Assembly: GCA_947479085.1 (NCBI GenBank)
Contig: CANJYB010000004.1
Location: 124,001-188,000, forward strand
Reading direction: 5' to 3'
Source of the DNA: Bacteroidota bacterium
GTDB lineage: Bacteria; Bacteroidota; Bacteroidia; 2-12-FULL-35-15
DNA length: 64,000 bases
Position numbers and translations under genes: made by a program. Positions 6,321-56,390 of this stretch are shown here, one piece after another; within the stretch, counting starts at the first letter, position 1, and each line of letters begins with the position of its first letter. Under the pieces are notes generated by a model. The model ran no database searches. It was not told the DNA's origin and worked only from the letters and a program-made list of their open reading frames with translations.

Positions 6321-9300
6321 TTGAATAAATCAGTTGCAAAGTTTATAGTTGTCGGGTTAGCTTCCATTGTGTTGCTTACTTTTATAGTAAGTTCCAATGC
6401 CAAAGTAAGTCCGTATAACCATGCAGAAAATATTGACGATTACGACCCGTTGGTGGTGGTGGATACTCCCATCACTCCTATTACGCTTCATTACAATTTT
6501 GATGACCAGAGTACTGGCGACCCGCTGAACTACCCGAATGGGGGTGGGCTGATGCTGAACAATCCTTCGAATATTCATACCAATGTGGAATACGACCCTG
6601 TAACTGGGCAGTACATTACTACGCAAACCATGGGAGGTATTAATTACCGTCCGCCAACTTACCTGGAAAGCGAAGAATACCAGGATTACATGTTTAAAAA
6701 ACAGGTAAAAGGTTACTGGAGTGCTCGAGCACATGCAGATTCGAAAAATGCAGCAAATGGTTCAAAAATCCCTAAACTACAGGTGGGTGGCGAAATTTTT
6801 GACCGTATTTTTGGAGGAAATACCGTGGATATTCGTCCGAATGGTTCTGCTGAATTGATATTTGCCTACAATGCTACCAAAACGGATAACCCGGCATTGC
6901 CAGTAAAACAAAGAAAGATACATACCTTCGATTTTAACGAAAAAATTCAGCTGAATGTTATTGGTAAAATAGGAGATAAGTTAAAGTTAACTGCCAGCTA
7001 TAATACCGAGTCCACCTTTGATTACGAAAACCAGATGAAACTGGAATATACAGGTTATGAGGATGAGATTATTAAAAAAATAGAGGCTGGAAATGTAAGT
7101 ATGCCATTATCGGGTTCGTTAATTACCGGTAGTCAGACACTTTTTGGTGTCAAAACTCAATTGCAGTTTGGTCGGTTAACAGTAACCAGCATTTTATCTC
7201 AGCAAAAAGGTAAAAAGAGTGAAGTGGAATCTGCCGGAGGTGCGCAGGTTACCAAGTACGAAATAGCGGGCGATAATTATGAAGCCAATAAGCACTTTTT
7301 CCTTGCCCAGTATTTCCGTGACCATTATAACGAAGCTTTGGCAGGATTACCATTTATCAATTCGCAGATAAACATTACCCGTATGGAAGTGTGGGTTTCC
7401 AACACCAATAACGTGGTGCAAGACATAAGAAGTGTGGTAGGTTTTTCGGAATTGGGGGAAAGTGCAGCACATATTCCTGCAAGCCAAACTTATGTTCATC
7501 CTTATCCTCAAAATTTGCCTAATGGTAATGCAGGGATTCCTGACAACCGTCAAAACGATTTATACCAGAATTTAACACACCTTGGCTTGTATCCTGCAAA
7601 TAGATTTGATCCAACCGATTCTACCTTAAGGGTAATAAATTATACCGTATCAGGTATTAATAGTAAGTTCAATCATACCCTGCAACAATCGGCTCAGTTT
7701 GAGTTATTGAATGCTAAAAAGTTGCAACCATCAGAATACACCTTTAATCCAAAACTCGGTTTTATCTCTTTGAACCAACAGCTAAATCCTGACCAGGTGC
7801 TTTGTGTGGCTTATGAATATACTTATAACGGGCAAGTGTACCATGTGGGTGATTTTTCTGAAAATGCTTTTGCTCCCAAAGCATTATTTGTAAAATTATT
7901 AAAAAGTACAACCACCAATACCCGTGCACCATTATGGAACTTGATGATGAAAAACGTTTATTCCATTGGTTCCTATCAAATAAATGCGGCCGATTTTAAA
8001 TTGGATGTGTTTTATACCAATTCCAAAACAGGAACTGATATTAATTACCTGCCGGTATCCAACTGCCAGACCAATGTGGTGAGCAAACCATTGATACAGG
8101 TATTGAGTTTTGATAAATTAAATTCGCAAAACGACCAGACTCCGGATGGGCAATACGACTTTATTGATGGGGTAACTATCAATGCAAATACGGGGCGCAT
8201 TATTTTCCCGGTGGTGCAGCCTTTTGGTGATTATTTACAATCCAGGTTTTCTGCCAGTTGCGACCCCTTTGAAGCAGGAAAGTATGTGTTTCACCAGTTA
8301 TACGATTCCACCAGGGTGCAGGCGCAGCAGATACCCAGCCTGAACCGATTTAAAATAAAGGGTTCTTATAAATCTGCCGGAGGTTCCGAAATTTCATTGG
8401 GAGCACCCAACGTGCCGCAAGGTTCTGTAACCGTAACAGCAGGTGGAGTAAAACTGACGGAGAATGTGGATTATACTGTGGATTACACGCTTGGAAGAGT
8501 AAAAGTAATTAACGAAGGAATTCTGAATTCGGGAGCGCCTATTAAAGTATCGCTTGAAAGTAATTCGCTTTTTGCTGTTCAGCAAAAAACATTGATGGGC
8601 ACTCACCTTGATTTTAAAATAAATAAGGATTTCAGTATTGGTGGTACCATTATGAATTTGAAAGAACGCCCATTGACCAAAAAAGTGAACATTGGTGATG
8701 AGCCTATTAATAATACCATCTGGGGATTGGATGGAAATTACCGTACCGATGCACCCTTCCTTACCCGATTAATTGACAAACTTCCTTTCCTTTCTACCAA
8801 GGAAATGAGTACCATTACTGCTTCTGCCGAGTATGCCTATTTAATTCCGGGACATAATAAAGCCATTGGAAAAAACGGGAATGCCTACATTGATGATTTT
8901 GAAGGAAGCACTTCCACTATTGATTTGCGTTCGCAAGGAGCATGGAACCTGGCGAGTACACCACAGGGGCAGCCAATATTATTTCCTGAAACGGCACCAA
9001 CACGTTTAGATACTTCTGTAGTTTCCGGATACAACCGTGCGAGATTGGCATGGTATGTTATCGACCCGATGTTTTTAAGGGCGGATGGGAATACACCAAC
9101 CGGAATTACAAGTACTGTTATGTCGAATAACTTTGTTCGTGAGGTTCCCGAAACGGAAGTGTTCCCAAATAAACAATCTCCGAATGGAGTACCAGTAAAT
9201 ATTTCTACTTTGGATATGGCTTATTACCCTCACGAAAGAGGGCCCTATAACTATGACCTCCCGAATGGAAAACCAGGTGTTTCCAGCGGGCTGGAGTTAG

Positions 9301-12300
9301 ATGGAAGTTTGAAAAATTCCGATAAACGATGGGGAGGAGCAATGAGAGCCATCTCTTCTAACGATTTTGAAGCTGCCAATATCGATTATATTCAGTTTTG
9401 GGTAATGGATCCTTTTAATGCTGATAATCCGGCCGGAAGCTGGAACACAACAGGTAATTTGTATTTTAACCTTGGTAATGTTTCTGAGGATATTTTGCAC
9501 GATAATTATAAAAGTGCTGAAAATGCTTTGCCTGCGCCTTCGGCAAACGTTCCAACCATTTCCACAGCATGGGGAATAGTACCCAACACACAGCCATTAA
9601 TTAATGCATTTAATTCGGACCCTGCCGACAGACCTTACCAGGATGTGGGATTGGATGGATTGAGCAATGTTACAGAAACTAATTTTTTTAATACTTATCT
9701 TAACCAGGTAAATAACTATTCTGCTGCAGCATATCAGAATATTCTTAGTGACCCTTCTGCCGATGATTATCATTATTTCAGAGGAGATGATTATGATAAT
9801 GCAGTAACATTAACCCGCGAACGGTATAAAAAATTTAACGGCCTGGAAGGGAACTCGGCTATTTCTTCAGGGTCTTATCCTACCGCTGCTAGCACCTTAC
9901 CAAACGTGGAAGATATTAATCATGATAATAACCTTTCCACTGTAGAAAGTTATTATCAATATCATATCGGTTTGAAACCAAGCGATTTTGCAGGAGGAGT
10001 GGGTACCAATTACATTACCAATGTTTTGGAAACTACGGGCCAGAATATTAAAGACGGAACCACCAAACCTATCAAATGGTACCAGTTCAAAATTCCTATC
10101 AGATCTCCTGAACTAAAAGTAGGAGCGATTGAAAATTTCCAGTCCATTCGTTTTATTCGTATGTTCTTTAAAGATGTGGATGAGAATATCCTATTGCGTT
10201 TTGCCCGTTTGGAATTGGTACGTGACGAATGGAGAAAATATGGTTTCGATTTATTATCACCGGGATTATATATTCCTAATGATGACGATTTGACTTTGTT
10301 TGATGTAGGTGCTGTAAACATTGAAGAAAACGGAAGTAAACAACCGGTGAATTATGTATTGCCACCAAATATTGACAGGGAAATAAATGCAGCTTCGGCT
10401 AATTTAACACAGCTGAACGAGCAGGCCATGTCGCTTACCGTTTGTAACCTGGCTGATGGGAAAGCACGTGCAGCCTATAAAAATACCGACCTGGATGTGC
10501 GTAATTACCATACATTAAAAATGTACATTCATGGTGAAGCTTCTGCTAATACTGCTTCTCACCTTAACGACAATGATCTGGATGTATTTGTTCGTTTAGG
10601 AACTGATTATACTGACAACTATTATGAGTATGCCATTCCGCTGCAGGTTACCCCTCCGGGAAGTTATACCAATACCGAAACTGACCAGTATAAGGTTTGG
10701 CCATCTGCCAATGAAATGATATTGGAATTTGCAAAACTACTGGATGTAAAACAAAACAGGAACGCCAAACTGAATGGAAGTACAGTAACATTAAACACCG
10801 AATATTCGGAATTGGATGGAACCAGAACCATTACCATAAAAGGAAACCCTACCATAAGCGAGATACGAACGATTATGATCGGAATTCGTAATCCTAAAAA
10901 ACTGGCTCCGGGAGGAAACGATGACGGGCTTTCGAAATGCGCACAGGTATGGGTAAACGAATTAAGGTTAACCGACTTTGACCAGAAAGGTGGCTGGGCA
11001 GCTAATGCGCGAATTACGGCAAAGCTTGCCGATTTGGGAACACTCTCTTTATCAGGAAGTACTTACACTCCCGGTTTTGGAAGTTTGGAAAACAAGGTGG
11101 ATCAGCGGAAAAGAGAAACCATGAGACAGTATGATGTTTCATCCAGTCTGGAATTGGGCAAGTTTTTACCAAAGGATGCCGGAATTCATATCCCGATGTA
11201 CATTGGCCGTGCCGAGACATGGATTACTCCTAAGTATAACCCGCTGGACCCGGATTTGGAATTGATACCCCAATTCAAAGAAATGGACAAGCACGATAAA
11301 GATTCTTTGAAATCAATAGTTCAGGATTATACCAAACGAAACAGTTTGAATTTTACCAACGTGAAAAAAGACAAAGGCAAGAATTCGAAGAAAAGCCATA
11401 TATATGATATCAGCAACTTTGCTTTATCTTATTCCTACACCCAGATTTTTAAGCGAAACGTAAATGTGGAATACAACGACCAGAAAAACTATCGCGGTGG
11501 GTTGATGTATAGTTTTTCTCCCGCGCCTAAAAACATAAAACCTTTTGCTAAAACAGCTTTTCTGCAATCCAACTACCTTGCATTGATACGGGATATTAAT
11601 TTTTATCTGAAGCCAAGCAACGTTGGTTTTTCTACCGATTTAATCCGTTCGTTCGGGACAGCCAAGGACAGGAACACGACAGGTGGCGACATTCTTATTT
11701 TGCCTACCTATAACAAACAGTTTAACATGAACCGGAATTATACCCTGAAATGGGATTTGACAAAGGCATTGAAGTTTGATTTTACGGCTAATAACCTGGC
11801 GCGAATATTTGAGCCTGCAGGGGATATTGATACCAAAGAGAAAAAGGATACCATTCTTACCAATTTGATGAATTTGGGACGAACATCGCAGTATAACCAC
11901 CAGGTAAACCTGAATTATACTATTCCTATTAATAAGATACCTTACCTGGATTTTACTTCTGCTTCGGTAAAGTATACGGGTACTTATACCTGGCAACATT
12001 CGCCATTGTATGATAACAAGTATTACACCAATCCGATAAGCGGAGAAGTATTGCCGGTGCACGTTGATACTTTGGGAAACACGATTCAAAACTCTCGAAA
12101 CATACAATGGAGCGGGCAGTTAAATATGACTACCTTATATAACCGGGTGCCATATTTTAAGAAAATAAATACCAAGGGAGGAGGCAAGAACCAGCAGGAT
12201 AATAAAGGGGGAGGAAAAGCTCAGGACCAGAATCCGAATGATACCACTAAACAGAAAAAGACAGAACCGCATGGACTGGGGCTGGTGTTTGCAAGATTAA

Positions 12301-13679
12301 TAATGAGTGTGAAAACCATATCGGGTACGTATGCGATGATAGACGGAATAATGCTGAACGGATATAACCAGAGTACACAAATGCTGGGTATGGATGCGCA
12401 TTTTAAAGCACCTACCACCGGGTTTATATTAGGTAGTCAGCAGGATATACGCCAACTGGCCATTGATAATTCGCAACACGATGAAGAACATCGAAATGAC
12501 GACTGGCTGGTGCATACCAGTTCGCTGAATACGCCTTATACTACCACTTCGAGCAGGAACCTGAACCTGAAAGCCAACCTGGAACCTATGCCGGATTTGA
12601 AAATAGAGTTGAGTGCCACACGTGCGCAATCGAGGGCTACTACCGAGTTCTTTAAATGGGGAGGAGCCAGCGATCCGCAATTTGTACATCAATCGCCTAC
12701 GGAATCGGGGAACTTCAGTATGTCGTTTTCGAGTTACCGAACTTCGTTTATGAATGGTGATGATGTGTTTGGAAATTTCCTGGAAGGAAGACAGGCGGTT
12801 TCTAACAAACTGGCGCTGGATAATCCGTATTCTAATTCGGCAAACTCAGTGGATGGTTATTCTGAAGGTTATAACTCAGTGTCGCAGGAGGTATTGATTC
12901 CGGCTTTCTTAGATGCTTATTCGGGTAAATTTTCTAAAAATGCAAGCACCAGCAGTTTCCCTAAAATACCTAAACCAAACTGGAGAGTGACCTACGATGG
13001 ATTATCGAAATTGAAAAAGGTGAAAAAACATTTCAAAACAGTTACCTTGAGTCATGCGTACCGCTCTAATTATAGTGTAGGTGGTTATAGTTCCAACTTA
13101 TTGTTTCATGATGAGTTTGGTGGATACACACATCAGAAAGACACGGTATCTACTGATCCTAACCCGAATTTTTATTCCGATAAATTAATAAATGCAGTAA
13201 CTATTTCGGAACAATGGAGCCCGCTGATAAAAATAGAGGTGATGATGAACAACAGCATTACCCTGAATTTTGAATACAAAAAAGACCGTAACGTTTCGCT
13301 GGGACTAACCAGTAAAACAGTGACCGAAGTGGCAGGACGCGAAATGATATTTGGGGCTGGCTATCGAATACAAGGCCTTACGCTTGGTAAACAGCTGTTG
13401 ATAAAAGGAAAACCTATAAAGGCTGACTTGGTGCTGAAAGGAGATTTATCGTTCCGGAAAAACATTACTACCATCAGGCGGATAGTGGAAGGTGTTAGTC
13501 AGCCTACAGGTGGTACCAATATTATTTCTATTAAGGTTTCAGCCGATTATCAGATAAGCACTACGGTGAGTATTCGTTTGTTTTACGACCATATTATCAA
13601 CAAACCGGTTATTTCTTCGTCTTTCCCTACCACCAATACCAATGCGGGAATCAGTTTGAGGTTAACTTTATCTAACTAA
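6321..13679 (+). CDS. sprA: SprA (Sov), outer-membrane translocon of the type IX secretion system
   Basis: SprA is the giant 36-strand beta-barrel through which T9SS cargo crosses the outer membrane; it is also needed for gliding in gliding species. The 2452 residues match the family's length. The protein begins with a TTG codon and an evident signal peptide (roughly residues 1-27, ending SSNA). Family stretches include VSPYNHAENIDDYDPL, VKGYWSARAHADSK, GGNTVDIRPNGSAELIF, the plug-like ADLGTLSLSG region, and GRAETWITPKYNPLDPD near residue 1635. A Gly/Lys/Gln-rich linker lies around residues 1950-1980. Five T9SS cargo genes and a T9SS plug gene lie elsewhere in the window. The gene ends just before repeat block 1. 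Confidence 0.97.
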   Translation: MNKSVAKFIVVGLASIVLLTFIVSSNAKVSPYNHAENIDDYDPLVVVDTPITPITLHYNFDDQSTGDPLNYPNGGGLMLNNPSNIHTNVEYDPVTGQYITTQTMGGINYRPPTYLESEEYQDYMFKKQVKGYWSARAHADSKNAANGSKIPKLQVGGEIFDRIFGGNTVDIRPNGSAELIFAYNATKTDNPALPVKQRKIHTFDFNEKIQLNVIGKIGDKLKLTASYNTESTFDYENQMKLEYTGYEDEIIKKIEAGNVSMPLSGSLITGSQTLFGVKTQLQFGRLTVTSILSQQKGKKSEVESAGGAQVTKYEIAGDNYEANKHFFLAQYFRDHYNEALAGLPFINSQINITRMEVWVSNTNNVVQDIRSVVGFSELGESAAHIPASQTYVHPYPQNLPNGNAGIPDNRQNDLYQNLTHLGLYPANRFDPTDSTLRVINYTVSGINSKFNHTLQQSAQFELLNAKKLQPSEYTFNPKLGFISLNQQLNPDQVLCVAYEYTYNGQVYHVGDFSENAFAPKALFVKLLKSTTTNTRAPLWNLMMKNVYSIGSYQINAADFKLDVFYTNSKTGTDINYLPVSNCQTNVVSKPLIQVLSFDKLNSQNDQTPDGQYDFIDGVTINANTGRIIFPVVQPFGDYLQSRFSASCDPFEAGKYVFHQLYDSTRVQAQQIPSLNRFKIKGSYKSAGGSEISLGAPNVPQGSVTVTAGGVKLTENVDYTVDYTLGRVKVINEGILNSGAPIKVSLESNSLFAVQQKTLMGTHLDFKINKDFSIGGTIMNLKERPLTKKVNIGDEPINNTIWGLDGNYRTDAPFLTRLIDKLPFLSTKEMSTITASAEYAYLIPGHNKAIGKNGNAYIDDFEGSTSTIDLRSQGAWNLASTPQGQPILFPETAPTRLDTSVVSGYNRARLAWYVIDPMFLRADGNTPTGITSTVMSNNFVREVPETEVFPNKQSPNGVPVNISTLDMAYYPHERGPYNYDLPNGKPGVSSGLELDGSLKNSDKRWGGAMRAISSNDFEAANIDYIQFWVMDPFNADNPAGSWNTTGNLYFNLGNVSEDILHDNYKSAENALPAPSANVPTISTAWGIVPNTQPLINAFNSDPADRPYQDVGLDGLSNVTETNFFNTYLNQVNNYSAAAYQNILSDPSADDYHYFRGDDYDNAVTLTRERYKKFNGLEGNSAISSGSYPTAASTLPNVEDINHDNNLSTVESYYQYHIGLKPSDFAGGVGTNYITNVLETTGQNIKDGTTKPIKWYQFKIPIRSPELKVGAIENFQSIRFIRMFFKDVDENILLRFARLELVRDEWRKYGFDLLSPGLYIPNDDDLTLFDVGAVNIEENGSKQPVNYVLPPNIDREINAASANLTQLNEQAMSLTVCNLADGKARAAYKNTDLDVRNYHTLKMYIHGEASANTASHLNDNDLDVFVRLGTDYTDNYYEYAIPLQVTPPGSYTNTETDQYKVWPSANEMILEFAKLLDVKQNRNAKLNGSTVTLNTEYSELDGTRTITIKGNPTISEIRTIMIGIRNPKKLAPGGNDDGLSKCAQVWVNELRLTDFDQKGGWAANARITAKLADLGTLSLSGSTYTPGFGSLENKVDQRKRETMRQYDVSSSLELGKFLPKDAGIHIPMYIGRAETWITPKYNPLDPDLELIPQFKEMDKHDKDSLKSIVQDYTKRNSLNFTNVKKDKGKNSKKSHIYDISNFALSYSYTQIFKRNVNVEYNDQKNYRGGLMYSFSPAPKNIKPFAKTAFLQSNYLALIRDINFYLKPSNVGFSTDLIRSFGTAKDRNTTGGDILILPTYNKQFNMNRNYTLKWDLTKALKFDFTANNLARIFEPAGDIDTKEKKDTILTNLMNLGRTSQYNHQVNLNYTIPINKIPYLDFTSASVKYTGTYTWQHSPLYDNKYYTNPISGEVLPVHVDTLGNTIQNSRNIQWSGQLNMTTLYNRVPYFKKINTKGGGKNQQDNKGGGKAQDQNPNDTTKQKKTEPHGLGLVFARLIMSVKTISGTYAMIDGIMLNGYNQSTQMLGMDAHFKAPTTGFILGSQQDIRQLAIDNSQHDEEHRNDDWLVHTSSLNTPYTTTSSRNLNLKANLEPMPDLKIELSATRAQSRATTEFFKWGGASDPQFVHQSPTESGNFSMSFSSYRTSFMNGDDVFGNFLEGRQAVSNKLALDNPYSNSANSVDGYSEGYNSVSQEVLIPAFLDAYSGKFSKNASTSSFPKIPKPNWRVTYDGLSKLKKVKKHFKTVTLSHAYRSNYSVGGYSSNLLFHDEFGGYTHQKDTVSTDPNPNFYSDKLINAVTISEQWSPLIKIEVMMNNSITLNFEYKKDRNVSLGLTSKTVTEVAGREMIFGAGYRIQGLTLGKQLLIKGKPIKADLVLKGDLSFRKNITTIRRIVEGVSQPTGGTNIISIKVSADYQISTTVSIRLFYDHIINKPVISSSFPTTNTNAGISLRLTLSN

Positions 13680-13717: not shown

Positions 13718-13876
13718 CACTGCAAAGTTATTTTGCGGAGCAGAAATATTGGTTTGTGGTCTTTGGGGTGATATTGCTGCAAAGTGCTTTTGGCAGACCT
13801 ATATTTTGGAGGTACTTGCACAGGATAATGAAAATGGCACAGGAAAAATAAACCTGCGTATACCGGAATGATGGAA

Positions 13877-14002
13877 CCGGACCGAATAATGATAAGAACG
13901 GATACAATAATGATGGAAAAGGATGGGATAATGAAGCGAACGGAAGGGATAATGAAGGAAGCGGATGGGATAATGAAAGGAACGGATGGTGTAATGATAC
14001 GT
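13877..14002. repeat. Repeat block 1a: six degenerate 21-bp tandem units
   Basis: Six head-to-tail units of exactly 21 bp begin at 13877, 13898, 13919, 13940, 13961 and 13982. The shared core is GGATGGGATAATGA with variable ends. A partial unit precedes at about 13863. Because 21 is a multiple of three, several frames stay open and spell heptad-repeat pseudo-proteins, but none has a start, composition or context like a gene. Part of the 588-bp gene-free gap between sprA and the acyl-CoA dehydrogenase gene. Confidence 0.85.
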
Positions 14003-14090
14003 TTTCGTCAAAAAGTAACGTTTCCGTCAAAAAGTAACGTTTTCGTTCAAAAGTAACATTTCCGTCCGAAAGTAACGTTTTCGTTCAAGC
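14000..14090. repeat. Repeat block 1b: five degenerate 19-bp tandem units
   Basis: Directly after block 1a come units at 14000, 14019, 14038, 14057 and a last partial one at 14076. Their consensus is CGTTTTCGTCAAAAAGTAA with C/T and A/C substitutions. The switch from 21-bp to 19-bp period is abrupt. Nothing else is seen from 14091 to 14203 except AT-rich sequence. Confidence 0.85.
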
Positions 14091-37855: not shown

Positions 37856-38521
37856 TTAAACAATCACTATCGAAAACGGCCTGCTGTCCGGCCCAGCCTC
37901 GTGGGTAGGACTTAGGTAATAACATATTACCCATAAGCGTTTTCCTTCTTTATCCCCCACAGAAAGGATTTCGAAAACAGTGGAACCTTCCGGCTCCTGC
38001 CTTCTGTAATCCTCTGCCACTGGAGGAACAGCATCAGCCCCTGTATAGGCTGTTTTGTACCCTATCGATTCCACATCTTTTGGTTTTCCTTTTTTGCCAA
38101 TCCGGTTAGGGTCCATGGCAAAAATTTTGGTTGTTAAATGTGTGTTCGAAACCAATGTAATGGTTGGTGCAAAATCTTTTGCAGGCACATTGCTTCTCGG
38201 CTTTTTAGGTCTTGCAATTCCCAGGTTTACATAGTCCACCCCCGAAAGCTCGATGGATGGATTCGACTTGATTTGAGTTTTTACACCTTCGGTGATGGCA
38301 TGGTCGGTAATATATAAGACATTGATATCTCCAATGCTTATATTATTATGAAAATTAGGGTTCGTGTAGTCGTCAAAGACGAGCAGCCAGGCCGTAAAAA
38401 GGCCAACAATCTCATCTTTTTGGTCCGAAGAAATTCCTAACGCAAGGAAGTTAGTTGATATATATGCCGAAAAGGCTTTAAAAAAGAAATGGTAGTCTAA
38501 AATTGTTTTTGATAATTCCAT
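37856..38521 (-). CDS. Conserved-looking protein of unknown function
   Basis: The 221 residues have no signal peptide or membrane segment and I recognise no family. The N-terminal 70 residues are probably helical (TILDYHFFFKAFSAYIS). A central stretch, IARPKKPRSNVPAKDFAP, is basic. The end is beta-rich (FEILSVGDKEGKRLWVICYYLSPTHEAGPDSRPFSIVIV) with an immunoglobulin-like or fibronectin-like strand pattern. A strong terminator follows, so it is probably monocistronic. Repeat block 2 lies upstream, about 235 bp from its start. Confidence 0.65.
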   Translation of the reverse strand: MELSKTILDYHFFFKAFSAYISTNFLALGISSDQKDEIVGLFTAWLLVFDDYTNPNFHNNISIGDINVLYITDHAITEGVKTQIKSNPSIELSGVDYVNLGIARPKKPRSNVPAKDFAPTITLVSNTHLTTKIFAMDPNRIGKKGKPKDVESIGYKTAYTGADAVPPVAEDYRRQEPEGSTVFEILSVGDKEGKRLWVICYYLSPTHEAGPDSRPFSIVIV

Positions 38522-38756
38522 TGTACTATAATTTAGGTGTTATTATTATTTTTTTAGTGTTAATTTTTTGATGTTCCGGAAACCAATTGATGGGTGCGGG
38601 AACAGGTTTTTTTACTGTTTTCTGTAGTTTTTCTTCTTTGTTTGGGTATTGGTCATTAGCCTGTTGTTTTTATAAGTTGTTAGTTATTAATAAATTAGTT
38701 GTTACTGTTCATCTCTTCCACGTCCTTTTATAGCATTTCCCCTTACTTCTTCATCC

Positions 38757-39029
38757 CATCGGGATGTGACGAGAAAACATCGGGATAGGATGAAAAAAAA
38801 TCGGGATGAAAATTAAAATCATCCGCATGAGATGTAAAACCTTAGGAACAAAAATCAAAATCATTGGGACGATATGCGATACCTTCGGAACGAAATTGAA
38901 AACCATCGGAGCGAGAAGTAATGTCGAGTCAGTTAACATTACCTCTCAGGTGGATAAGACGTCATCTCATTCACTTAACTTTACCTCTCATCGGGATGAG
39001 ATGAGCTCTCACGTGGATTTGTTGCTAAA
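38757..39029. repeat. Repeat block 2: about thirteen degenerate 21-bp tandem units
   Basis: Units start every 21 bp from 38757 (38757, 38778, 38799, 38820, 38841, 38862, 38883, 38904, 38925, 38946, 38967, 38988, 39009). The core of the first ones is CATCGGGATG with a variable tail. Later units alternate, so that units 5 and 7, 4, 6 and 8, 9 and 11, and 10 and 12 resemble each other, giving a 42-bp higher-order period. The open frames across the block (7-residue periodicity) are by-products of the 21-bp unit. The rest of the gap 38522-39158 is AT-rich and shows nothing else. Confidence 0.85.
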
Positions 39030-39158
39030 TCAGCCACTTTTGGCTTTTTTGTGTAATTATTCAATGAACTTTGTTAGCGGCATCAAAGCTACGTGGAAGG
39101 TTTTACATACAAACTATGGTATTCCATAAGTGGGAAAATCTAGCGATAAGTGGGAAAA

Positions 39159-39740
39159 TTAACGGAAAGTGGAAACTAAAAACTGTTTAATCATTATGTC
39201 AAAGGCTTGTTTCTTTCGTTTGGATATGTCCAGGTCTTTGTTATCTATCATTATTACAACGCCATTAATAGTATTATCTATATAATGTGAAATATATTTC
39301 ATATTGACAATATGCCCTGCGTGTATATTCATAAACTGGTGGGAAGGTAATTTGCTAACAAACCAACTTATTGTGTTCTTGGTCACATATTCTTTTTTAT
39401 TTAATAAAGTGGTTAAAGTGTAGTCTCCTCTTTTTTTAATGTGGACTATTTGATTAAAAAACACTTTAACAGATTTAGTTCCTTCTTTCAGATAAATAAA
39501 ATCAATCCATTCCACACCCGCTTTCTCTTCCAATACTTTTTCAATATACAAGTTCGAAATTACCAGCCCAATTTCTTTTTTATTTATTTTCTCCTGGTAT
39601 TTTTTAATAATATCAGCAGGTACAGCAAAGATTTCTTTACCGTTTAGAATCTCTAACCGACCTTCAATCGGTATTGTTTCCTCATCATTTTCGGTGATAA
39701 GTGAAAGAGCAAGTGCGAGTTTAAACAGAGGAGCATCCAT
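39159..39740 (-). CDS. LytTR-domain DNA-binding protein without receiver domain
   Basis: The 193 residues end in a LytTR DNA-binding domain (about residues 95-190): VFFNQIVHIKKRGDYTLTTL, then SKLPSHQFMNIHAGHIVNMKYI and the terminal DLDISKRKKQAFDIM. The N-terminal 90 residues (GLVISNLYIEKVLEEKAGV, EWIDFIYLKEG) are not a response-regulator receiver and no Asp phosphorylation site is seen. It probably binds direct repeats as other LytTR proteins do; targets unknown. Two 21-bp-spaced GGTCGTTTT units lie about 85-130 bp upstream of its start. Confidence 0.8.
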   Translation of the reverse strand: MDAPLFKLALALSLITENDEETIPIEGRLEILNGKEIFAVPADIIKKYQEKINKKEIGLVISNLYIEKVLEEKAGVEWIDFIYLKEGTKSVKVFFNQIVHIKKRGDYTLTTLLNKKEYVTKNTISWFVSKLPSHQFMNIHAGHIVNMKYISHYIDNTINGVVIMIDNKDLDISKRKKQAFDIMIKQFLVSTFR

Positions 39741-54465: not shown

Positions 54466-54545
54466 GAAAGTCCAAAGTTTTAAAGTTGCAAAGTCCAAAG
54501 TTACATAGCTAGCTTTGGACTTTGAACTTTTTAACTTTGAACTAT
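54466..54545. repeat. Hairpin repeat of the AAAGTCCAAAG family, between convergent genes
   Basis: Imperfect inverted repeat: AAAGTTGCAAAGTCCAAAG on the left and CTTTGGACTTTGAACTTT on the right, around TTACATAGCTAG. It fills the gap between the protease and TetR stops and supplies the last three TetR codons. A related element lies at 61668-61766. It may serve as a bidirectional 3' end. Confidence 0.7.
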
Positions 54546-55154
54546 CTTTTTATACGGCCCCAGCAACTCCTTTATCAGTTGAAGAAAATAATTTATTTGA
54601 ACTTCTGTTTTTTCTTTGGGATGAGAAATGAGAGCTTCCGAAATCCAGAATTTGAGTATTAATAAAATGTGGTGAATCAAAAAATCGTTTTCTTTTTTAG
54701 AAAGTTTTTTTAGTTCCCCGTTTTTTGTCATCGCTGCAATAGTATCACCTATTATTATTTTTCTCGCCTCTTCTTCTTTTTTATTTCGTTCGGCTATTTC
54801 GGGATGGTGTGTCTGAAGATTTGCAAAACTGATGAACAGGCAGCGGTATTGCGTTTGCAATAACATATAAGATTTTAATAAAGAAAAAAAATCTTTCAGA
54901 TTATTTCCTGCCTGTCCGCCTGCCTGTCCGGTAGGCAGGGTAGGCAGGTTTTCGTTTTGCCAGAGCAGATTATTTTTTTCTGAAAACTGAAAAGCAATGG
55001 CATTTGCAAGGTATTCTTTTTTGGAAAAATGACGGGTAATGTTTCCCGAATTCAAATCCATTTGATCCGCAAGCTGGCGTACCTCCACCTTATCCAGCCC
55101 ATACACGTTATATAATTCGAGTGCTTTGTTGATGATTTTTTGTTTAGTTTTCAT
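54531..55154 (-). CDS. TetR-family transcription regulator with an in-frame palindromic insertion
   Basis: A repressor-type regulator of 207 residues. The N-terminal HTH is typical: IINKALELYNVYGLDKVEVR, QLADQMDLNSGNITRHFSKK. The C-terminal ligand domain is helical and unassigned. Residues around 65-80 (PTLPTGQAGGQAG) come from a 42-bp GC-rich repeat element inserted in frame at 54907-54948, in the linker between the HTH and ligand domains. Its promoter faces the divergent gene at 55275, with a perfect palindrome between them, so it probably controls itself and that gene. Confidence 0.85.
   Translation of the reverse strand: MKTKQKIINKALELYNVYGLDKVEVRQLADQMDLNSGNITRHFSKKEYLANAIAFQFSEKNNLLWQNENLPTLPTGQAGGQAGNNLKDFFSLLKSYMLLQTQYRCLFISFANLQTHHPEIAERNKKEEEARKIIIGDTIAAMTKNGELKKLSKKENDFLIHHILLILKFWISEALISHPKEKTEVQINYFLQLIKELLGPYKKIVQS
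54907..54948. repeat. GC-rich palindromic repeat element inside the TetR gene
   Basis: Two tandem CCTGCCTGTCCG units are followed by two tandem GTAGGCAGG units, 42 bp in all, able to form a hairpin. It is far richer in GC than its AT-rich surroundings. Its length is a multiple of three and it encodes PTGQAGGQAG-type sequence without a stop. Similar PTGQAG stretches are familiar from other environmental Bacteroidota proteins. Confidence 0.8.
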
Positions 55155-55274: not shown

Positions 55275-55724
55275 ATGGCTTATCAAGATGTAATTCAAAA
55301 CCACCTTACCCAAGGAGAACTTGACGCAATCAACACAAAAATGGACGAACTGTGGGCATTGCTCAACCCGAAAGTGGTAAACCTTACCGAGCAGGAAAAC
55401 GATCGGTATGGAAGTATTAATGAAAAAAACAAAGGCATTGTAAACAAGGCAAATGATTATAACAATAATCAGCCGTCCTTAAATAGCCCGGAAGTGGACT
55501 GGGTGGAGTATAAAAAAGATTACTTCGACAGGTCAGCGCTCGAAGGCATTCAGTTGAGGTTACTCGGGTATGCACGCGCATGCGAAGAAACCAAGCGCGC
55601 TCACGATTACGATAATTATCAAAACGCATTAACTGACAAAGAATATGCAGAATATAAAGCTAAAACCGGAGGAGGTGTACTTTACGAAACCAAAGCGGCA
55701 GAATACAAACAGTTTTTTACATAG
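55275..55724 (+). CDS. Unknown protein, likely TetR target
   Basis: A 149-residue soluble protein with no signal peptide or membrane helix. It is rich in Tyr, Asn, Lys and Glu and probably mostly helical (ELDAINTKMDELWALLN, ALEGIQLRLLGYARACEETKRAH). I recognise no family. It is divergent from the TetR gene across the operator at 55176-55194 and ends in its own terminator, so it is most likely a single-gene unit under TetR control. Confidence 0.7.
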   Translation: MAYQDVIQNHLTQGELDAINTKMDELWALLNPKVVNLTEQENDRYGSINEKNKGIVNKANDYNNNQPSLNSPEVDWVEYKKDYFDRSALEGIQLRLLGYARACEETKRAHDYDNYQNALTDKEYAEYKAKTGGGVLYETKAAEYKQFFT

Positions 55725-55745
55725 ACATATATATAATGTATGAAA

Positions 55746-55781
55746 ATGCAGTCAGGCTTAAAAGCATGACTGTATTTTTTT
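55746..55781 (+). terminator. Intrinsic terminator of the gene at 55275
   Basis: ATGCAGTCA pairs with TGACTGTAT (one G-T pair), with an inner GCTT/AAGC stem, followed by a run of seven T. It lies 21 bp past the stop codon. Confidence 0.85.
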
Positions 55782-55798
55782 GGTTTTTAGCGAAAAAG

Positions 55799-55987
55799 AG
55801 GTTTTAAACCACTATGTATAGGTTTTAAACCCCTAACAATAGGTTAAAAACCCCTACACATAGGTTTGAAACCCCTATCGAGGGGTTAAAAACCCCTAAC
55901 AACAGGTTAAAAACCCCTACGGATAGGTTTTAAACCACTAGCGAGGGGTTAAAAACCCCTAACAACAGGTTTAAAACCTAATAGCAA
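55799..55987. repeat. Repeat block 3: nine 21-bp tandem units with palindromic core
   Basis: Nine units start every 21 bp from 55799 to 55967. Each has a 15-bp conserved part, AGGTTTTAAACCCCT or GGGTTAAAAACCCCT, which is palindromic, and a 6-bp variable part (ATGTAT, AACAAT, ACACAT, ATCGAG, AACAAC, ACGGAT, AGCGAG, AACAAC). The array ends 31 bp before the start of the HTH/coiled-coil gene at 56019. It fills most of the 294-bp gap after 55724. Confidence 0.92.
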
Positions 55988-56018
55988 AGGATTTCAGTAA
56001 CAAAGTAATAACAAAAAG

Positions 56019-56390
56019 ATGAAAAGAGGGAAAAAAAATTCGGATGTAATGACAATAAATGTCGGAATAATGATTGCCGAAAAAATTAAAGAACAAAAAA
56101 TTTACAAAACAGATATTGCCAAAAAAATGGGCCGGCAGGAAACAGCAATGATTCCAATTTTAAAACGACCTTCAGTACAAACCTATTTGCTTTGGGAAAT
56201 AAGCGAAGCAATAGGCCATAATTTTTTTCACGAAATAGCAGAAGCACTAGACGAAAAAACAAAAGACACATTGACCAACGGAAAACAAAAAGAAAAACAA
56301 AAAATAGCCGAACTGGAAAAAGAAAATGAAAAACTAAAACTGGAAGTGGAGATTTTGAAGGAGATAGTGAAGGGGAAAAATGGGGGGTGA
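56019..56390 (+). CDS. XRE-like HTH protein with C-terminal coiled coil
   Basis: A small basic protein of 123 residues. Residues 15-70 look like an XRE-type helix-turn-helix (IAEKIKEQKIYKTDIAKKMG, ILKRPSVQTYLLWEISEAIG). Residues 85-120 are a highly charged coiled coil with Leu/Ile heptads (KIAELEKENEKLKLEVEILK), suggesting a dimer or higher oligomer. No catalytic or ligand domain is seen. The gene lies immediately downstream of the nine-unit palindromic array, which makes that array a candidate binding site. Function otherwise unknown. Confidence 0.75.
   Translation: MKRGKKNSDVMTINVGIMIAEKIKEQKIYKTDIAKKMGRQETAMIPILKRPSVQTYLLWEISEAIGHNFFHEIAEALDEKTKDTLTNGKQKEKQKIAELEKENEKLKLEVEILKEIVKGKNGG

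Follow-up and report, generated by a model that had tools for sequence, protein, structure and literature searches.

The array and the gene behind it

This locus raises the question of whether a tandem array of 21-bp repeats is a binding platform for the protein encoded directly downstream of it. Both lie in a window of 64,000 nucleotides, which is the whole stretch of DNA that was analyzed. A preliminary description had placed nine repeat units 31 bp before an HTH gene, and this arrangement is present as claimed. The features are as follows.

55799..55987, no strand assigned: array of nine 21-bp units, each with a core of the AGGTTTTAAACCCCT type and a 6-bp variable part; candidate multi-site binding platform
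55988..56018, plus strand: leader of 31 bp from the array to the ATG, containing no TAnnTTTG -7 element
56019..56390, plus strand: open reading frame of the HTH-coiled-coil gene, 123 aa, fold predicted

All nine units are in phase and each is exactly 21 bp long; units 5 (55883-55903) and 8 (55946-55966), said to match in core and variable part, are the same over 21 bp. When both strands of the window were searched with a two-unit pattern (GGTTNNAAACC-N10-GGTTNNAAACC, up to 2 mismatches), 16 matches were obtained, compared to 0.01 expected by chance. Eight of the 16 were mismatch-free, on the plus strand and all inside the array, and no match was found elsewhere in the 4.28-Mb genome. Variation within the array is limited to some columns (column heterogeneity p=0.0005). 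The palindromic core that had been described is significant here, with 0 of 400 column shuffles as good, but in several units the palindrome is not perfect (GGTTAAAAACC). About eleven single AGGTTTWAAACC sites lie outside the array in the same genome versus one for the reversed control; these outlying sites, which include C28:9242, C28:9782, and C3:72870 of G000, are possible extra targets of the HTH protein.

Several other identities for the array were considered and rejected. Its anatomy, with a 6-bp variable part and no cas gene among the neighbors, speaks against a CRISPR, and every Rfam match was far below the gathering score, which speaks against an RNA family. A coding repeat (21 bp being 7 codons) is excluded at the homologous loci L057, L060, and L061 because the period there is 22. 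A palindromic, REP-like CCTGCCTGTCCG/CGGTAGGCAGG repeat is present nearby at 54907-54950, in frame within a TetR gene (54531-55154).

The protein had been described as an XRE-type HTH with an oligomerizing coiled coil and no other domain, and an AlphaFold2 model (mean pLDDT 75, from a small alignment of five sequences) gives an HTH followed by a long helix. The predicted five-helix Cro/C1 fold, which is that of XRE proteins, has helices at residues 15-25, 30-37, 41-49, and 55-65 and then one helix at 69-120, with the predicted recognition helix at about 41-49. Among the solved structures closest to it in fold are C.Esp1396I, Stl, PrgX, and SinR (VIA-align Z 7.6-9.6 over about 61-72 residues). 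Foldseek gave a probability of about 1.0 with best E values of 0.017-0.02, which are modest, so that the Cro/C1 assignment is one of fold class only. No HTH family was reached in a Pfam search with the protein; its paralogue L003 scored above the Pfam HTH_26 cutoff. The match to Pfam KfrA_N (PF11740) had an E value of 0.041 and 15 bits, below the cutoff of 26.1, and no LytTR domain was matched. The neighbors of the gene are P (see below), the TetR gene, and a gene for a T9SS-sorted protein, with no NTPase gene of partition systems (ParABS, ParMRC, or TubZRC) among them. No match to the protein was found in plasmid and phage collections, which are probably poor in Bacteroidota. A mobile origin was set aside on these grounds, the single weak viral-contig match (L317) being without a 21-bp array.

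Pairing of gene and array in paralogues and relatives

Three more members of the HTH family (47, 31, and 30% identical), one of them at C3:243032 of G000, were found in the same genome by protein search alone, with arrays disregarded. Each has a period-21 tandem array directly upstream, and the word is different each time (GTCAAGGTTTATGAC in L002/L013, TTCCGTGAACC in L003, and AAAGTGAAC in L004). Because an array lies within 400 bp upstream of 42 of 673 genes (6.2%) in 864 kb of this genome, the presence of one before all four family members has a p value of about 1.5e-5.

A profile of the four proteins was used to search 148 related genomes, mostly draft and metagenome assemblies, and homologues were found in 70 of them. 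In about 90 retrieved loci, the sequence ahead of the start codon was compared with the downstream sequence, the array calls depending on thresholds. On a quick tree of 86 proteins, which was built from few columns and has many unresolved forks, 24 of 28 labeled rows of one clade had an upstream array; three of these calls were weak (L022, L037, and L055) and were later set aside, so that the count is 21 to 24 of 28 depending on them. All five members of a second clade had an upstream array, and none was found in the remaining >50 rows, a large homologous sister group. The array label changes 5 times on the tree, compared to a mean of 24 for shuffled labels. When 700 bp of downstream sequence was analyzed at each of these loci, none had the values of a clear upstream array, and one truncated locus had a weak value of 0.50. 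The arrays consist of 5 to 15 units, end 5 to 168 bp before the ATG, and have a period of 21, or of 22 in L057, L060, and L061; a period of 22 also fits helical phasing. The expectation that homologues would carry such arrays thus held for close and diverged homologues, at 21 or 22 bp and with their own words, but not for the large sister group. These comparisons argue that the pairing of HTH gene with array is not local chance, and the view of the two as a genetic unit extending over several families of the class is well supported by them.

Array words and protein lineages

Each HTH protein lineage has its own array word. The similarity of words correlates with protein identity (Mantel r 0.41, with 0 of 2,000 permutations as high), and words are alike mainly where the proteins are alike. 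In the orthologous loci (the window, L163, L164, and L048), GGTTTWAAACC is kept and the spacers are different, which speaks for selection on the core.

The correlation between word and protein could also be produced if gene and array were merely inherited together, with no recognition between them. When a regression was run, the identity of the recognition helix had a weak effect (p 0.009) and that of the rest of the HTH a stronger one (p below 0.0005); L045 and L016 have a common word although their recognition helices are just 33% identical. Since the recognition helix contributes only weakly beyond the rest of the HTH, these data do not distinguish co-descent from co-adaptation, and helix 3 was not retained as the sole determinant of the word. 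Palindromic cores were significant in just 14 of 27 HTH arrays, so a single HTH dimer on each palindrome is not a general mode of binding, and palindromy was likewise dropped as a rule for HTH arrays.

Promoter geometry and the proposed role of the array

Bacteroidota promoters have TAnnTTTG at -7. In seven loci (L013, L003, L004, L043, L044, L046, and L017), chosen after seeing a scan of 27, this element follows the array and ends 14 to 18 bp before the ATG. Compared to a background of 21 of 679 ordinary genes with the element in that position, 7 of 7 has a p value of about 3e-11, and its location after the array indicates that the arrays of these loci are just upstream of the promoter. In the clade of the window, the array ends 18 to 56 bp before the ATG and no TAnnTTTG element follows it; with no -7 element between array and ATG, the HTH promoter probably lies ahead of the array or overlaps with it. 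Either geometry would leave an array-bound protein in a position to control its own gene.

We consider it rather likely, by analogy, that the array is a private platform of the adjacent HTH-coiled-coil protein that serves cooperative binding and autoregulation, because of the anatomy of the locus and because KfrA, StbA, and RptR act on repeated sites beside their own promoters. Dimers of the HTH protein would bind successive cores, and, since these are spaced two helical turns apart, the dimers would lie on one face of the DNA. The coiled coil would join the bound dimers into a cooperative complex. As the array overlaps or directly precedes the promoter, the first consequence would be autoregulation of the HTH gene, as with KfrA. 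A nucleoprotein filament, as proposed earlier for regulation or chromosome organization, may also form, and a further role in local chromosome organization is conceivable.

P, a third conserved part of the locus

The locus has a third conserved part, absent from the preliminary description, in front of the array.

55275..55724, plus strand: P gene, encoding a mostly helical protein of 149 aa that belongs to no known family; conserved in position ahead of the array
55743..55778, plus strand: terminator-like hairpin with a T run after it, located past the P stop codon and ahead of the array (z -4.7 for the fold of 55725-55795)

No Pfam, NCBIfam, or PADLOC match was found for the P protein, and its predicted structure (pLDDT 50) was too uncertain to be used as evidence. 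P homologues occur directly before the array, or before the HTH gene, in L163 (87%), L048 (85%), L164 (64%), L045 (48%), L165 (46%), and L166 (44%) and, as detected by profile, in L057, L060, L076, L077, L098, and L022. The order in these loci is P, array, HTH gene, all on the same strand; no array was called in L166, which has P and the HTH gene. In L048 (1560-1930, G015) the HTH-coiled-coil gene is frameshifted into frames of 77 and 98 aa, and the adjoining P and array look intact.

P is present in 20 of the 148 genomes, and an array directly follows the P stop codon in 39 of 48 distinct P loci. The P profile was seeded with P genes adjoining HTH genes, and none of the 37 loci without an HTH neighbor was a seed. 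In 28 of these 37 an array is found just downstream, compared to 4.5% of genes in general, with an array threshold slightly looser for the P loci than for the general genes. In L280, L283, L284, L303, and L314, the P gene has a 21-bp array after its stop codon and a convergent next gene, so that the array is not the operator of that next gene. At 16742-17524 of L227 (G093), a P gene and an array are followed by an 85-aa gene outside the HTH family, which may encode a regulator of a different type in that position.

The terminator-like hairpin, which was not flagged by a consensus scan, suggests that transcription of P does not extend into the array. A copy of the array word before P was also considered as a possible second target. 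A 12-bit match is present there in the window, but the idea was rejected since the P orthologues do not have the word conserved ahead of them. We propose that P is the partner gene of the module.

21-bp arrays throughout the genome

The second result that goes beyond the preliminary description is that 21-bp arrays occur genome-wide. In 864 kb of the same genome, 53 period-21 arrays were found (L103-L142 and the window). A multi-period scan gave 51 arrays at 21 bp, the next commonest period being 18 with five, and no arrays were found in first-order Markov controls of the array scan. Extrapolation gives about 250 21-bp arrays for the whole genome. Almost all are intergenic, each has its own word, and most have no HTH-coiled-coil gene nearby; mismatches are limited to certain columns in 14 of the 53. 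The flanking genes are tandem in 21 cases, divergent in 7, and convergent in 6, and this lack of promoter bias indicates that the arrays are not confined to promoters. The same scan found 12 arrays in 200 kb of G004, 4 in 100 kb of G093, and 2 in 100 kb of G088. None was found in the 400 kb scanned of G009 and G010, which belong to the same genus, lack the 'b' family (described below), and have HTH homologues of the array-less group alone. In front of ileS, G000 has an array and G015 has another one accompanied by an HTH gene, and in 28 further genomes of the genus the region is without an array; the 21-bp arrays are gained and lost quickly.

The order LytTR gene, array, 'b' gene is recurrent (L107, L118, L138, and window 37859-39740), 'b' being a recurrent hypothetical gene of about 220 aa with no Pfam family. 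The locus in the window comprises the following.

39162-39740, minus strand: LytTR gene
38745-38924: array
37859-38521, minus strand: 'b' gene

In other genomes an array was found upstream of 19 of 23 testable 'b' genes, truncated loci being left out. A profile comparison of P with 'b' found nothing, and the idea that they form one superfamily was dropped. More hypothetical families recur beside 21-bp arrays (L103, L123, and L133; L108 and L116; L126, L129, and L131), and those of them that were put through Pfam or NCBIfam gave no convincing match. A period-21 array followed by a period-19 array (ACGTTTTCGTCAAAAAGTA) lies at 13838-14088 of the window, between a 2452-aa open reading frame (6321-13679) and an acyl-CoA dehydrogenase gene, with no adjoining regulator.

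The preliminary description had named arrays common in genomes without the protein as an argument against its reading, and in part such arrays exist: many in this genome have no adjoining HTH gene, and G012 has arrays upstream of 'b' genes, with the HTH family not found in that genome. Its interpretation is partly supported, and its observation of the array is confirmed. The same findings count against the array as a private HTH platform, since most arrays of the genome have no adjoining HTH gene of the family and some P-array pairs without an HTH gene stand before convergent genes, where an operator role appears unlikely. The lack of significant palindromy in half of the HTH arrays, and of a conserved array word before the P orthologues, also counts against it. 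The platform reading leaves this wider class, with the same pitch, other words and neighbors, and P-array pairs lacking an HTH gene, unexplained.

It is conceivable, although we think it unlikely, that the 21-bp arrays are instead one genome-wide class of element with its own role or origin, for example a landing, recombination, or structural site beside interchangeable families (P, HTH-coiled-coil, and LytTR with 'b'), and that HTH binding is secondary or absent. Such a class would account for 53 arrays in 864 kb with 21 bp strongly dominant and none in the Markov controls, for the arrays after 28 of 37 HTH-less P genes and before 19 of 23 testable 'b' genes, for flanks of all three orientations (21, 7, and 6), and for rapid gain and loss, as upstream of ileS. 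It does not explain why an array stands beside nearly every HTH gene of the array clade or why the words follow the protein lineage.

Other explanations for the array

We regard as improbable that the array is a centromere-like or anchoring site at which the chromosome is locally positioned or condensed by the HTH protein, P being an accessory factor, much as StbA acts for plasmid R388 and KfrA assists for RA3. Long arrays of 5 to 15 units and a protein of HTH and coiled coil with no other domain would suit this role, as would the action of StbA on two sets of five 9-bp repeats (PMC3098194) and of KfrA on five 9-bp repeats (PMC7783346). However, the copies lie on chromosomes, with several in a genome, occur sporadically in relatives, and differ in word each time; one HTH copy is broken (L048), and there was no match among plasmids or phages.

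A neutral minisatellite produced by slippage is very improbable. Nearly identical adjacent units are present in some arrays (e.g., L129 and L137), but the 21-bp period is fixed across unrelated words and genomes, and mismatches limited to certain columns were found in 14 of 53 arrays. Core and spacer columns are not equally diverged in the window orthologues, the cores being kept and the spacers replaced. In addition, the gene context is recurrent, and arrays are absent from 400 kb of two genomes of the same genus. Action of the array as RNA, through repeated hairpins in the HTH mRNA leader, can hardly be credited even though many cores are palindromic and some arrays are 5 to 20 bp from the ATG, since palindromy is missing from half of the arrays, no Rfam family scored above gathering, and a predicted promoter after the array in seven related loci would leave the array untranscribed from that promoter there.

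Significance of the HTH-array pairs and of the wider class

HTH proteins with repeated operators are already known, and the wider class of arrays is the more novel part of these results. Because a single family offers dozens of naturally occurring pairs, each a protein with its private array, rules linking an HTH to its DNA word can be read from evolution. In the same genomes, many more arrays share this pitch, have other words, and lie next to families that have no known function. We tentatively suggest, at somewhat less than even confidence, that some Bacteroidia have a genome-wide system of private, operator-like 21-bp arrays, possibly hundreds per genome, each with its own word and with flanking genes from a few families (HTH-coiled-coil, LytTR, P, and 'b'). 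The arrays would be the hub of a fast-diversifying module for which we found no described counterpart, and the 21-bp pitch would be its common rule. Our literature search, in a library with few subscription journals and preprints, found no description of 21-bp arrays in Bacteroidetes. If all of the arrays are protein platforms, they would amount to a large layer of bacterial regulation or chromosome organization that is undescribed in the literature searched.

Comparison with known systems

Proteins combining an HTH with a coiled coil include pSK1 Par and RocS, which act in plasmid or membrane-linked segregation, and pSK1 has centromere-like repeats upstream of the gene. C.Esp1396I, SinR, Stl, and PrgX have the Cro/C1 HTH fold predicted here but lack the 50-residue C-terminal helix, and we know of no array of the 21-bp kind for any of them.

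LytTR repeats are about 9 bp long. In LytTR systems an autoregulated gene has direct repeats, usually two, upstream of its promoter, mostly separated by 12 bp and in a minority by 11 or 13 (PMC6193735). Together with the repeat length, a 12-bp separation gives a period near 21. The LytTR fold is different from that of the HTH protein; the likeness is relevant to the LytTR-array-'b' loci and not to the HTH gene.

RptR, a small regulator that controls a restriction-modification island, binds as dimers to adjacent direct repeats in its own promoter; there are three repeats of 9 bp, and they contain palindromes (PMC12255303). The locus described here is similar in having a small predicted regulator and direct repeats with palindromes before the gene, but it has nine units of 21 bp.

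The closest functional analogues of the HTH-array module appear to be StbA and KfrA. StbA of R388, which functions in plasmid positioning and conjugation, acts on two sets of five direct repeats (stbDRs) beside its own promoter; these are 9-bp repeats with 2-bp spacing and therefore an 11-bp period, and their word is also found in other plasmid promoters (PMC3098194). Both systems have a direct-repeat array beside the gene of a DNA-binding protein, predicted in our case, and the periods differ (21 versus 11 bp). KfrA of plasmid RA3 is an oligomerizing autorepressor of 355 residues with an HTH and an alpha-helical coiled coil, and the repetitive operator before its plasmid-borne gene consists of five 9-bp repeats in mixed orientation around the -10 (PMC7783346). 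The protein described here has 123 aa, occurs in several private copies per chromosome, and matches KfrA_N below threshold, and the 31 bp from its array to the ATG contain no promoter element. It resembles KfrA in having an HTH with a long helix, here in a predicted fold, and a repetitive array before the gene.
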